Assembly (NCBI GenBank): GCA_021413475.1
Contig: JAIOQJ010000118.1
Span: forward strand, 1-34,346
From: Planctomycetota bacterium
Lineage (GTDB): Bacteria > Planctomycetota > Planctomycetia > Gemmatales > Gemmataceae
Length of the DNA stretch: 34,346 nt
Reading direction: 5' to 3'
Position 1 is the stretch's first letter, and every line of letters starts with the position of its first letter. The position numbers and the translations under genes were made by a program. Below are positions 4,864-34,346 of the stretch, one piece after another. The notes beneath the pieces were generated by a model. The model saw only the letters and a program-made list of their open reading frames with translations. It did no database searches and was not told where the DNA came from.

Positions 4864-5073
4864 TCCCAAGGTCTCATCGTTTCGACGAGGTTCGTCTGGA
4901 AGGTAAGTAACGAGCCCAGACGAGCCCACTCGTATTGTCGCATTTCCAACCAATTGTACCCCGCATGGGCCGTGCTGTCGACCGAAGGCTTCCGACGCGA
5001 CTTGCGGCTATCACAACGGCAACTGAACTTACAAATGAAAAGGCAACCGCAAGGGACCGATCGCGCGTACAAT

Positions 5074-6999
5074 TCACTTCTTGCGCAACGTCTTCAAATC
5101 AAAGAGAACCACTCGGTGGAGGTCCGCAACGGCCAGCAGACCGTCCTGTTTGCGGAAGGCGCAGGCACCTCTTCGATCATAACCCACGATTCGTTGGTCG
5201 CGAAAAAAGTCCTCCTTGACCTCAAAAGTCTGGATGTCGCGAAGTGCGACGCGGCCAGCGCTATCTGCACTGATGAAAAACTTGCCATCGGGACTGAAGG
5301 CGATCTGCTTCACTTGAGCCACTTGGCGGAAATCACGCCGTTTGCCGACCTCCAATTGATCCCCATTCCGTTCAAGCGGCCAGAAATACACCGCTTGTCG
5401 ATACACGGCGGCCAGCAGCTTCCCGTTTCGGTCGAAATCGAGGAAATAGGGGAACTCGTTTTTTGGTACCTCCAGCGTTGCCAATCGGTTAAAGGTTCGG
5501 GCATCATGGATGACTACTTGATTGGACGCGGTGGTGGCGAGCAACGAACCGTCAGGCGACCATGCCGCCGCGTCGACGCGATCCTCGTAGCCGTCCAGTT
5601 TTTCGATCATGGCTTTCTTGTCGACGTCCCAGATTTGGGCTGTCTTGTCATCGTGCGTCGAGCAAAGACGCTTTCCGTCACTCGAAAAAGCGGTATTCCA
5701 TATTTTCGGTTGGTTCGGAGAATCTTTGGACAAGACGATCGGTTCAATCGATTCCGCTCGATTGAAATAGGACAGCCTACCATGAGGCGGGAAAACGGCG
5801 ACCTTCGTGGTATCTGGAGAAATGGCTGAAACGGTACGTACGTCATTTCCAAATGGCTGGGTTTTGGGTGCCTCTGGCGCTACTCCGATGACTTTTCGTT
5901 TATCCACGTCAATCCAACAAGCGTGCTCAAGCTGGGTGCCGCAAGCAAGCGTCTTGCCATCATCGCTGAACCGCAGTGCTATTACTTCACCAATGTCCTC
6001 TGGCAGCGGGATTTGGGCGATGGCATCTACCGGCAATGGGCCCAATCTGGGATCGAAATTAAGTTCAATTTTCTTCGGCGTTTTTGCGGGTTCTTTCAAA
6101 ATTGGAGGAGGCAATTCCGGCACATTGACGACCGGAACGTGTTGTTGCGGGATAAAGACGTTAGCTAGCTCCTTTTCCTTTCGACCCAACTTGACGGAAT
6201 AGATCACCACGATAATCACCCCAATTAGCACCACGACACCAAGAATGGGAATTACCCAGCGACCAATGCCAGTCGATTCATCGCGTTCGTCACGTTCGCG
6301 CCGACGATCTCGGCGTGGCCGAGTTACAACTTCCTCCTCCTCGTCTCGGGCAGACGCGAACGGCACTTCGACGTCGAAGACCTTTCGGCAATGCGTGCAG
6401 CGCACTCGGTCGCCGACTTCCCGGCTGGGCAGCGCGAATAATTCACCGCACTTCGGACAATCGAGGTCCACCAATTCTTCGCGTGCCTGGCGGACCGGCC
6501 TATCACGGCGACGCGAAGGCGCGTCGATCTCGTCCGGTTCGGCGTCGTCCTCACCTCGCCGGGGACGCCGACGCGTTTTGCGCCGTTCCCTTTCAAATGC
6601 AAAGGCTGCCGGGATCGATCCGGCCAGCGCGGCAACGATGGGTATTTTGATGAACAGGCCGGAAAAGATCGCTCCAGGCACGACTACCCCCATCACGGCG
6701 TGGCAGGTGACGTAAATAATGAACGCCGTGATCGTGATCGGGACCGGGAAACGCTTGACGAAAATGCCGAAGCCAATGAAGACGACGCCCACCCCGGTGA
6801 ACACCAAAAAGAGTTGTTGTGCCCAGACTGCGGCTTTGCCCTGGGTGAAAAAATACAAGTTGGCACCGGACGTGATAAAACCGACGACAAGCAATATCAC
6901 ACGGACCGCGAAGATTTGTCTCAGGCCATTTGAACGCTCGTCCGTGTCGTCTTCATATCTGCGGCTTTTTTCATTTCGGCGGTCGGGATAGGAACCCAT
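5074..6999 (-). CDS. Membrane protein with zinc-ribbon (MJ0042-like) and C-terminal WD40 repeats
   Basis: Several N-terminal TM helices, then LDCPKCGELFALPSREVGDRVRCTHCRKVFDVEV, a further TM helix (WVIPILGVVVLIGVIIVVIY), and WD40-like repeats (FSSDGKRLCSTHDDKTAQIWDVDKK). Confidence 0.85.
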   Translation of the reverse strand: MGSYPDRRNEKSRRYEDDTDERSNGLRQIFAVRVILLVVGFITSGANLYFFTQGKAAVWAQQLFLVFTGVGVVFIGFGIFVKRFPVPITITAFIIYVTCHAVMGVVVPGAIFSGLFIKIPIVAALAGSIPAAFAFERERRKTRRRPRRGEDDAEPDEIDAPSRRRDRPVRQAREELVDLDCPKCGELFALPSREVGDRVRCTHCRKVFDVEVPFASARDEEEEVVTRPRRDRRRERDERDESTGIGRWVIPILGVVVLIGVIIVVIYSVKLGRKEKELANVFIPQQHVPVVNVPELPPPILKEPAKTPKKIELNFDPRLGPLPVDAIAQIPLPEDIGEVIALRFSDDGKTLACGTQLEHACWIDVDKRKVIGVAPEAPKTQPFGNDVRTVSAISPDTTKVAVFPPHGRLSYFNRAESIEPIVLSKDSPNQPKIWNTAFSSDGKRLCSTHDDKTAQIWDVDKKAMIEKLDGYEDRVDAAAWSPDGSLLATTASNQVVIHDARTFNRLATLEVPKNEFPYFLDFDRNGKLLAAVYRQAVYFWPLERNGDQLEVGKRRDFRQVAQVKQIAFSPDGKFFISADSAGRVALRDIQTFEVKEDFFRDQRIVGYDRRGACAFRKQDGLLAVADLHRVVLFDLKTLRKK

Positions 7000-29987: not shown

Positions 29988-30473
29988 ATGCTTGACGGTC
30001 CCGCTGTCACCGAGGCGTTAGAAACTTGCGGGGTCACTCACGTCGTTTGGATCCCCGATAGTCATCTGGGTACCTGGGAAACCGCGCTCCTGCACTCGAA
30101 ATCCATCCGCTTGATTCGCGCCTGCCGTGAAGGAGAAGCGATCGCCATCGCGGGCGGGTTGCTGATCGGCGGGGCGAAACCCGTCGTCATGATTCAATGC
30201 ACCGGTTTATTCGAGGCCGGCGACGCCTTGCGGAATATCGTTTACGATCTGAACTTGCCGTTGATCCTCGTCGTCGGCGTCCGGAGCTATATTGCTCATC
30301 AGGCAGGCAAAAGCACCGACAATTGCCCCGTCTTCACCCAGCCCGTTCTCGACGCCTGGAAAATTCCGCAAACGATACTCGATCCCAATCAGCACGCGTC
30401 TGGCGATCTGATCGCGGCCATGCGAAATTGTCTTCGCACCGGCACAGCCGGCGCGATTCTCATCGCGGAGTGA
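29988..30473 (+). CDS. ThDP-dependent decarboxylase, alpha (Pyr-domain) subunit, sulfopyruvate/phosphonopyruvate decarboxylase-like
   Basis: THVVWIPDSHLGTWETAL...RACREGEAIAIAGGLLIGGAKPVVMIQCTGLFEAGDALRNIVYDLNLPLILVVGVRS. Confidence 0.8.
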   Translation: MLDGPAVTEALETCGVTHVVWIPDSHLGTWETALLHSKSIRLIRACREGEAIAIAGGLLIGGAKPVVMIQCTGLFEAGDALRNIVYDLNLPLILVVGVRSYIAHQAGKSTDNCPVFTQPVLDAWKIPQTILDPNQHASGDLIAAMRNCLRTGTAGAILIAE

Positions 30474-30477
30474 CCCG

Positions 30478-31044
30478 ATGATGACTCAACGCGAAGCACT
30501 CGAAGTCCTGGCCGGTGTGCGTGGCGATCGCGCCGTCATCACCACCATGGGCTCGAGCGGCCTGTGGCCTTCTATCTCCGATACCCCGCTCGATTTCGCC
30601 TACATTCCTTCCAGCATGGGCCAGGGCATTGCGATTGGCCTGGGAGTCGCCCTGGCGCAAACGCGGCATGGCGTCATCGCGGTGATGGGTGATGGTTCGC
30701 TCTTGATGAATCTCGGATCGATCGTCACCGTCGCAAATCACCCGGCCAATTTGTTCGTCATCCTGATCGACAACGGACTTTATGAAGTGACCGGAGGACA
30801 GCCGACCGCTGGTTCCGGCACGGTTGATTTCGCGGGTATGGCTCGGGCGGCAGGGATTGAACGTGTCCATGCCTTCGACTCGCTCGACGAATGGAAACTG
30901 AAGGCACGGGAGTTGCTCGGCGGTTCTGGGCCCGTTTTCGTTTGGTTAAAAGTGCAGGGGCAGCGCGGACAGAAAACGCCGTTGCCACCGCGATCGATGT
31001 CGGAGCAGATCGAGCGATTGCGCGCCGGGCTTCTTGGTTCGTAG
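30478..31044 (+). CDS. ThDP-dependent decarboxylase, beta (PP-domain) subunit
   Basis: GQGIAIGLGVALAQTRHGVIAVMGDGSLLMNLGSIVTVANHPANLFVILIDNGLYEVTGGQ (GDG..N ThDP motif). Adjacent to the alpha subunit. Confidence 0.83.
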   Translation: MMTQREALEVLAGVRGDRAVITTMGSSGLWPSISDTPLDFAYIPSSMGQGIAIGLGVALAQTRHGVIAVMGDGSLLMNLGSIVTVANHPANLFVILIDNGLYEVTGGQPTAGSGTVDFAGMARAAGIERVHAFDSLDEWKLKARELLGGSGPVFVWLKVQGQRGQKTPLPPRSMSEQIERLRAGLLGS

Positions 31045-31141: not shown

Positions 31142-31513
31142 TTGAGAAATGATTATTCTCCCGCCATGAGGCGGAACCTTCCCACACCACCCATGTTCGC
31201 GGATTGGCCCGAAAGTACTCGGCCGCTCCGACATCGCTTCACGCGCAAACTTCGCGAGGCATTTCGTGGAGCGAAGAAAGGTGTGCGCGGCGAGTCGAAT
31301 TTCTTCGTTCTATTCTTCTTTGCCGCGATTGCGCTGACAGCAGCGATTGCGCTGGATTGCAGTCTTGTGGAATGGTGTCTGCTGATCTTGAGCATCGGCG
31401 GAGTGGTTGCCGCGGAACTTTTCAACAGCGCGATCGAAGCTCTTTTCAGTGGTCTCGATGAAGCTGCCCGCGCTCGCTGGTACGGTCGCCTCTGGATACT
31501 GTTGGCGTCGTGA
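31142..31513 (+). CDS. DgkA-like diacylglycerol/undecaprenol kinase, C-terminus apparently truncated
   Basis: AFRGAKKGVRGESNFFVLFFFAAIALTAAIALDCSLVEWCLLILSIGGVVAAELFNSAIEALF. The E-x-N-F and E-x-x-N-S-A-I-E motifs are present; the third TM helix is missing. Confidence 0.75.
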   Translation: MRNDYSPAMRRNLPTPPMFADWPESTRPLRHRFTRKLREAFRGAKKGVRGESNFFVLFFFAAIALTAAIALDCSLVEWCLLILSIGGVVAAELFNSAIEALFSGLDEAARARWYGRLWILLAS

Positions 31514-31622: not shown

Positions 31623-33095
31623 TCACCATTTCAACATCAGTCCTAAATTGATGCCTTGAGCGATAAAGTCACGGTCGCGGCCAAGGAACGCCGGTCGGGC
31701 ATTTGGTACGATGTTCGGCGACGGCCGGAAGTTGGGAATCCGGTTCACATCCAGGCTGGTGTCGATCTGATCGCCGGGACGGAGGACGTTCGACCAATAT
31801 AGGATGTTGTAACCGACGAACACTCGGCAATGATCGGAGATGTTGTAACCGAGGTTCAACGTCAATTCCGGAACGATCGTGAACTGCTCGCGGTAGTGCC
31901 GGCCGATGTTGCTGTTCAGAGCCAGCAGACCGCCCTGGCTGACGACGTTGCTCCCATCGGCCATGATGTTCGACTGGCCGCCGCTGATCTGCACGATGGA
32001 CGTTGTGGAGCCGATGGCGAGCATCGTTCGCAGATCCAGCACCCAGCGACCTCGGGCACAACCGAACGCCGCCCCGATCTGGCCGCCGTAGAACTGGTTC
32101 GACGTGCTGAACTGATCGAATGCATGGCCTGAAACGATGAACTGTGAGGGATCACCGACCACGGGGTTGGCATCCGGGGCGAGGCGGGTCGATTGCTCTT
32201 CGATGCGAAGCGATTCCTGCAGGCTCAGGTATCGGAAGCCGACCAATCCATCGATGTAGCTGCGCTCGCCTTGCCAGAATTTTCGGCGAAGGTTGATGTC
32301 CGTGCCCCAGATCTTGGACGAGTTTCCAACGGCGATGCCGCCAGCGAACAAACCCGGGAAACCGACGATTTCCGAAGACGGGCCGCCCGTGTTCAAGCTG
32401 TCGAAAGGCCTGGCCAGCAGTGTATTCGTTCCCGAGTTGAATCGATTATCGCTGCCGCTCTGGGAGAGGAAGAACAGATGACCGTCGAAGCCCCAATTCC
32501 GGCACTTGCCGCACCAATACTCGTATCCGAAGCGGACGCCGCTGCGAAAGTTCGGGATTGTCTCCGACTGATTGCCGAAGAGCGTGGTCACGCCTGCTTG
32601 GCCGAGGGCGCCATCGGATGACGCGGGCCCCGCGGTAACAAGTGCCGGAGTCGGATAGCTATTCGTCCACCACGCCAGGTATTCCGCGCTGAATTTCAGA
32701 CGATCGCGATTAATGAATGGCGGAGCTTCAGGCGCAAGCTGAAAGAGCGGCTCCTCCGTCAGGGCGCTTGAGGTCAGAGCAGGCGTAGTGGTTGCCGGTT
32801 TGCTCGGCACGACGACGTTGGGATCCTTCGACGCATCCTTGGGCATTGGCTTTGGGGCGTCGATGAAGCGATAGGGAGAGGGTGGATTGAAATCCTGAGC
32901 CGGGATGATGGGAGGAAGAATTTCCTCCGCATTGGCCGGGAGAATCGGGGCGATTGTCGGCCGCGATGGCTGCGGCAAACCGAGTGATGCCCTGGGTGCG
33001 CCGAGAGACGCGGCCGGCTGAACCGAGGGGGATTGTCCGCTGGCGGCGAGAGAAGTCGCCAACGAAATACTCAAGCTCCACAACACTTTTTTCAT
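31623..33095 (-). CDS. BBP7-like outer membrane beta-barrel protein
   Basis: Signal peptide MKKVLWSLSISLATSLAASG, Pro-rich linker, RLKFSAEYLAWWTNSYPTPALVTAGP, GVRFGYEYW, ...LTLNLGYNISDHCRVFVGYNILYWSNVLRPGDQID. Confidence 0.85.
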   Translation of the reverse strand: MKKVLWSLSISLATSLAASGQSPSVQPAASLGAPRASLGLPQPSRPTIAPILPANAEEILPPIIPAQDFNPPSPYRFIDAPKPMPKDASKDPNVVVPSKPATTTPALTSSALTEEPLFQLAPEAPPFINRDRLKFSAEYLAWWTNSYPTPALVTAGPASSDGALGQAGVTTLFGNQSETIPNFRSGVRFGYEYWCGKCRNWGFDGHLFFLSQSGSDNRFNSGTNTLLARPFDSLNTGGPSSEIVGFPGLFAGGIAVGNSSKIWGTDINLRRKFWQGERSYIDGLVGFRYLSLQESLRIEEQSTRLAPDANPVVGDPSQFIVSGHAFDQFSTSNQFYGGQIGAAFGCARGRWVLDLRTMLAIGSTTSIVQISGGQSNIMADGSNVVSQGGLLALNSNIGRHYREQFTIVPELTLNLGYNISDHCRVFVGYNILYWSNVLRPGDQIDTSLDVNRIPNFRPSPNIVPNARPAFLGRDRDFIAQGINLGLMLKW

Positions 33096-33447
33096 CTTCG
33101 TGCCCTCCGGGCTCTTCTCTCGCCGCAATTCTAGCGGCGCTGGCTTCCTAGCCTAAATCAAACGGCTTGAGAGATCGGGTGATCCCGATTCTCCTCCTTC
33201 TTTCAATCGGCCAATTGGGGCCGGTCGCACCGTTCGAACATCTGCTTCGATGATAGGCCATTTTGAATAGCCCCCTTTTTCTCCCTTCCTCCGGCACAAT
33301 CCGTATGTCCGTTGCCCGCGAACGCCAATTTTGCGACTGACCGGCATTCACATAAGGACGGAGCAATCCAAACCAAGCGATCAGGCCGATGCAATCGGTA
33401 TTCCAGTACGTCCCGGTCTGATCGGTTCACGCCGGCGCTGGCTTTGC

Positions 33448-33460: not shown

Positions 33461-33775
33461 ATGAAATTCCGGTCCCGCCAATGCAGGAAGCTGATGGCAG
33501 CCGGCCTGCTGGGGCTTGCTCCGCTGCTGATGATGCCCGCGTCAGCCAGCGCGATTTTCCCCCCAATTAATCGCGATCCGGTGGTCGCGACGCCGCAAGT
33601 CGTGACGCCGCTCGTCGTTGTCGACCCCCCGGTTGTGATCGTCGGCGAACCCGATCCGCCGATCGTGTTCGTGCCAGACGAGAAGACTCCTGAGCCGGCG
33701 ACTATAGTCTCCGGCCTGATCGCTTTGACTTGCGCCGGCATTTTCGTCCGCCGTCGCAAGCTTGCACATGTGTAA
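33461..33775 (+). CDS. Small PEP-CTERM sorting-domain protein
   Basis: Signal peptide MKFRSRQCRKLMAAGLLGLAPLLMMPASASA. Ends TPEPATIVSGLIALTCAGIFVRRRKLAHV (PEP, hydrophobic helix, RRRK). Confidence 0.88.
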   Translation: MKFRSRQCRKLMAAGLLGLAPLLMMPASASAIFPPINRDPVVATPQVVTPLVVVDPPVVIVGEPDPPIVFVPDEKTPEPATIVSGLIALTCAGIFVRRRKLAHV

Positions 33776-33838: not shown

Positions 33839-34346
33839 TCAGAATTGCGGCGGGGTTTCCCGCACGAGTTGGTTGGCATGGGCCAGCGAATCGAGCGTGC
33901 CCGCGTCGGTCCAGTAGCCGTCGATGATTGTGTAGCCCATGCGTTTCTGTTGAAGGTAGTAATTATTCACATCGGTGATTTCGAGTTCCCCGCGAGCACT
34001 TGGCTTGAGCGAGCGAATCGCTTCAAACACATCCGGCGGATAAATGTAAACACCGATGACGGCGTAATCGCTTTTCGGGTTCTTCGGCTTCTCTTCAATC
34101 CCCACGACCTGGTTCCCCTTCAACTCCGCGACGCCATAACGACCCGGATCGGGCACGCGCTGCAGGAGTCCCCGGTCCTCGAGCCGGGTGACGAGCCGCG
34201 TGATCCCGCTCGGCGTCAGCATCTGACGCGCACCGAGATCTGTCATGCGCAACCGCATCCGCGGAGCCGTGACGAAGACGATCAGGACGCTGTAGTCGTC
34301 GATCGAGATCTCGCCATGCTCACGTAGGCGGCGGTCGATCTCGCGC
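33839..34346 (-). CDS. Chimeric ORF: MarR-like HTH segment fused in frame to the C-terminal half of a glucose-1-phosphate thymidylyltransferase (RmlA/RfbA-like); partial at right edge
   Basis: Minus-strand translation from the edge: REIDRRLREHGEISIDDYSVLIVFVTAPRMRLRMTDLGARQMLTPSGITRLVTRLEDRGLLQRVPDP (MarR-like), then GRYGVAELKGNQVVGIEEKPKNPKSDYAVIGVYIYPPDVFEAIRSLKPSARGELEITDVNNYYLQQKRMGYTIIDGYWTDAGTLDSLAHANQLVRE (nucleotidyltransferase). Confidence 0.85.
   Translation of the reverse strand, partial: REIDRRLREHGEISIDDYSVLIVFVTAPRMRLRMTDLGARQMLTPSGITRLVTRLEDRGLLQRVPDPGRYGVAELKGNQVVGIEEKPKNPKSDYAVIGVYIYPPDVFEAIRSLKPSARGELEITDVNNYYLQQKRMGYTIIDGYWTDAGTLDSLAHANQLVRETPPQF

Follow-up and report, generated by a model that had tools for sequence, protein, structure and literature searches.

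Architecture of the frame at the contig end

Does the open frame at the right edge of this DNA encode a genuine fusion of a MarR-type regulator with a nucleotidyltransferase, or was the contig misjoined? The window, i.e. the whole stretch of 34,346 bp that was analysed, represents the entire contig C105 (G000:C105:1-34346) of assembly G000 (6.3 Mb in 792 contigs; estimated completeness 93.6%, contamination 6.6%). Its end is the end of the contig, a point left out of the original prediction. The frame in question comprises 168 codons (33839-34345, minus strand), remains open up to the contig end and runs off it, with neither a 5' boundary nor a demonstrated start codon. Its ~62 N-terminal residues are MarR-like, and its C-terminal ~101-102 residues correspond to the second half of RmlA (glucose-1-phosphate thymidylyltransferase). 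Using Pfam, residues 20-68 were assigned to MarR/MarR_2 (PF01047/PF12802; E 5e-7 to 8e-7) and residues 62-162 to NTP_transferase (PF00483; E 2e-23), and the RmlA part was identified in NCBIfam as rmlA_long (TIGR01208; profile positions 131-234 of 353). The matches for both parts are well above chance and bear out the predicted union of a MarR winged helix and a C-terminal RmlA half in one frame. Of the 245 positions of the NTP_transferase profile, the match spans only 138-243; as had also been predicted, the frame lacks the first half of RmlA with its nucleotide-binding motif GGxGTRL. Neither the MarR nor the RmlA piece forms a complete domain. The features are listed in Table 1.

Table 1. Pieces of the chimeric frame and of the rmlA gene, with their coordinates.
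Feature	Location	Strand	Evidence
C-terminal rmlA part, probably native to the genome, GRYGVAELKG through stop codon	33839..34144	-	56-83% identity to intact rmlA of 29 relatives; PF00483 145-243/245; TIGR01208
Junction zone RVPDP, probable misjoin point, fits both parents	34145..34159	-	Sequences of RmlA and MarR relatives
MarR winged-helix fragment, truncated, probably joined by misassembly, running off the contig end	34160..34346	-	PF01047/PF12802; best relatives 50-54%, mostly Actinobacteria; no second copy in the bin
Probable first (N-terminal) half of this rmlA, cut off where C763 ends; rmlB lies upstream	L132 (G000:C763) 5043-5441	+	TIGR01208, Pfam

Identification of the missing rmlA half

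A search of the same assembly with TIGR01208 yielded a match to profile positions 2-121 on contig C763 (5055-5414, plus strand), in addition to the window piece and more distant paralogues. C763 is 5,441 bp long, and its rmlA frame is still open at the last base, ending in ...EANKQPNWAWV. This piece supplies the 133 N-terminal codons of rmlA, contains the GGxGTRL motif and covers NTP_transferase positions 2-127, complemented by positions 138/145-243 in the window piece (Pfam). Directly upstream of it lies rmlB. Judged by these profile searches, the bin apparently has no close rmlA other than the one to which the window piece belongs. C763 and C105 have no terminal k-mers in common, down to a length of 12, and could therefore not be rejoined by overlap.

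Both pieces were then compared, using tblastn, with 29 loci found in relatives. A single intact gene covers both pieces in all 29 cases, and the distance from the last codon on C763 (133) to the codon aligned with residue R63 of the window frame is exactly 9 nt in every one of them. This spacer corresponds to three codons, usually GLK, as in WAWVGLKQVPDPGRYGVAE. Identities to the relatives amount to 61-86% for the N-terminal and 57-83% for the C-terminal piece, and the two sets of values correlate across the 29 loci (Spearman 0.62, p = 0.0003). About ten of these loci carry rmlB on the upstream side of rmlA; in the one-contig genome G001 the two genes adjoin each other, and rmlA forms an intact frame of 243 residues.

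Based on these comparisons, the MarR-RmlA frame is, with a probability of roughly 95%, an assembly artefact, produced by a misjoined contig end in the last ~190 bases, and the real gene is an ordinary rmlA beside rmlB. A different explanation is that a real rearrangement, by recombination or as a strain variant, disrupted rmlA in some members of the population and placed a MarR fragment in front of its 3' half. In its favour, no stop codon interrupts the frame at the junction, and bins can mix strains. However, the two rmlA pieces break no more than 9 nt apart, each at the end of its contig, which is what a break in the assembly of an intact gene would produce. The product of the rearrangement would lack both a full winged helix and the part that binds the nucleotide, and the event would cost the bin what is apparently its sole close rmlA. 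We consider such an event very unlikely, and its stronger form, in which recombination has truly inserted a MarR fragment into the rmlA of a minority strain, with a fused protein of altered function as the result, still less likely.

Position of the junction

The original prediction had located the junction in a stretch that could occur in both parents, and the alignments agree with this. Identity to RmlA relatives starts at residue V64 or R63 of the frame, and identity to MarR relatives stops at about Q62/R63. At the junction, the RmlA relatives read [GA]LK[QEKR]VPDPGRYGVAE, with RVPDPGRYGV itself present in the RmlA of three of them (L016, L021 and L026). The MarR relatives read LEDRGLLQR[YV].CP[DT]DRRG at the corresponding point, or LVERVVDPEDGRK in the case of L116. 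The sequences of both groups fit RVPDP, and the junction can therefore be placed inside this stretch, at residues R63-P67 of the frame. The junction is in frame, an outcome that has a chance of one in three for a random join; this counts against a misjoin, as do the lack of shared terminal k-mers between C763 and C105 and the typical Markov likelihood of the tail (see below).

Under the misassembly reading, the true rmlA would lie directly downstream of rmlB, with its 133 N-terminal codons ending C763 and its C-terminal part represented by the rmlA piece of C105, and ~9 nt of the gene between the two pieces would be missing from both contigs. At this gap, the assembler would have added to C105 some 187-202 bases belonging to a MarR gene located elsewhere, passing through the short RVPDP stretch that fits both genes. 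The join itself may have been made by a chimeric read or a graph path.

Truncation and origin of the MarR fragment

Residues 1-62 of the fragment hold the helix-turn-helix region (LTPSGITRLVTRLEDRGLLQR). The MarR wing with its DRRG-type motif is absent, as the frame switches to RmlA just before it, and so are the flanking and C-terminal dimerisation helices, since the 168-residue frame passes straight into RmlA; MarR relatives go on for ~60 residues past the wing. Close relatives of the fragment are separate genes.

The suggestion that the bases beyond ~34150 come from another genome proved plausible, with evidence on both sides. In its favour, the GC content of the tail is 67.2% vs a contig mean of 57.8% (a value equalled by only 0.6% of the contig's 201-bp windows), and 41 of the 44 loci in the genome collection that are related to the fragment belong to Actinobacteria (best identity 54%). 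On the other hand, the best identity to any relative found is about 50-54%, a relative at 47% occurs in one genome from the family to which the window belongs, and the third-order Markov likelihood of the 196-bp tail is typical, with 51.7% of the contig segments scoring lower or equal. GC3 of the MarR part is 85%. Composition alone does not decide the origin of the tail, given its high GC and GC3 but unremarkable Markov score. Among 392 sampled genomes from the phylum of the window, the fragment had four weak matches and no more. No second copy of the tail DNA was found in the bin, and the searches yielded no close relative that could represent the donor (best identity 50-54%). The fragment probably derives from a different locus, and perhaps from a different organism.

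Search for genuine MarR-RmlA fusions

The two domain matches in one open frame could also reflect a functional regulator that senses a ligand, with a domain for sugar-nucleotide binding attached to the DNA-binding domain of a MarR protein. Homologues with the same two-domain architecture, which the original prediction had associated with a real fusion, did not turn up. When the full 168-residue query was compared with the 58 other genomes of the set of relatives, only its RmlA side was matched, and no listed match showed both domains. The phylum of L037 was searched in 397 genomes; each of the matches listed there involved a single side of the query, and none had both domains. A few of the latter matches reach further N-terminally. 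The frames that contain them have the length of complete RmlA-type proteins, and the extensions probably represent alignment into the N-terminal half of RmlA itself.

Nine plasmid records with a match covering at least 80% of the query were considered as possible fusions and rejected: among those listed, every one with an annotation is an rfbA, and the alignment apparently continues into the N-terminal half of RfbA itself.

Against a functional regulator speak not only the lack of a homologous fusion in these genomes and the annotation of the longest plasmid matches as rfbA, but also the missing wing motif and C-terminal dimer helices of MarR and the fact that the nucleotide-binding GGxGTRL half, missing from the frame, is present on C763. 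We regard this explanation as scarcely credible. The original prediction had weighed a fusion against a misjoin at ~34150; the misjoin is strongly favoured by the complementary piece on C763, the 9-nt gap and the synteny with rmlB, and the fusion is disfavoured, with none in the genomes searched.

The MarR-RmlA fusion is thus most probably not a real feature, and its relevance would be for quality control only. Trimming of the last ~190 bases of C105 is warranted, and the predicted fusion protein should be kept out of protein databases and domain-architecture surveys. More generally, a suspected fusion can be settled without reads when the missing half of the gene is sought at the other contig ends of the bin.

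Neighbouring genes in the window

Next to the frame, a 104-residue protein (33461-33775, plus strand) starts with a stretch similar to a signal peptide, and its C-terminus (PEPATIVSGLIALTCAGIFVRRRK) is reminiscent of a PEP-CTERM sorting signal; the protein gave no Pfam match. Further inward lies a gene for a putative beta-barrel porin of the BBP7 family (31623-33128, minus strand; PF07585, E 6e-85). A thiamine-pyrophosphate decarboxylase-type enzyme is represented by two adjacent genes, TPP_enzyme_N then TPP_enzyme_C (29988-31044, plus strand), followed by a diacylglycerol-kinase-like gene (31142-31513).

Comparison with known systems

The 102 C-terminal residues encoded in the window align end to end with the C-terminal half of intact relatives of the short form of RmlA/RfbA (~245 residues; PF00483; matches TIGR01208; PDB 3hl3). 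They contain the C-terminal motifs, including EEKPKNPKSDYAV and GELEITDVNN, and conform to the pattern EKPKxPKSxYAV/GELEITDVN. They differ from RmlA/RfbA in lacking the N-terminal nucleotide-binding half, which sits on C763. With MarR regulators (PF01047/PF12802), the window shares the helix-turn-helix in residues 1-62, whereas its piece has no DRRG wing, no C-terminal dimerisation helices and no N-terminus before the contig end. A literature search on chimeric contig ends returned nothing. Compared with contig ends of metagenome bins that are chimeric or misassembled, no notable difference emerges at the level of sequence, and the likeness extends to three points: a probably foreign tail at the end of C105, with the length of approximately one read, a junction stretch common to both parents and the complementary part of the broken gene, which lies where another contig of the same assembly ends.
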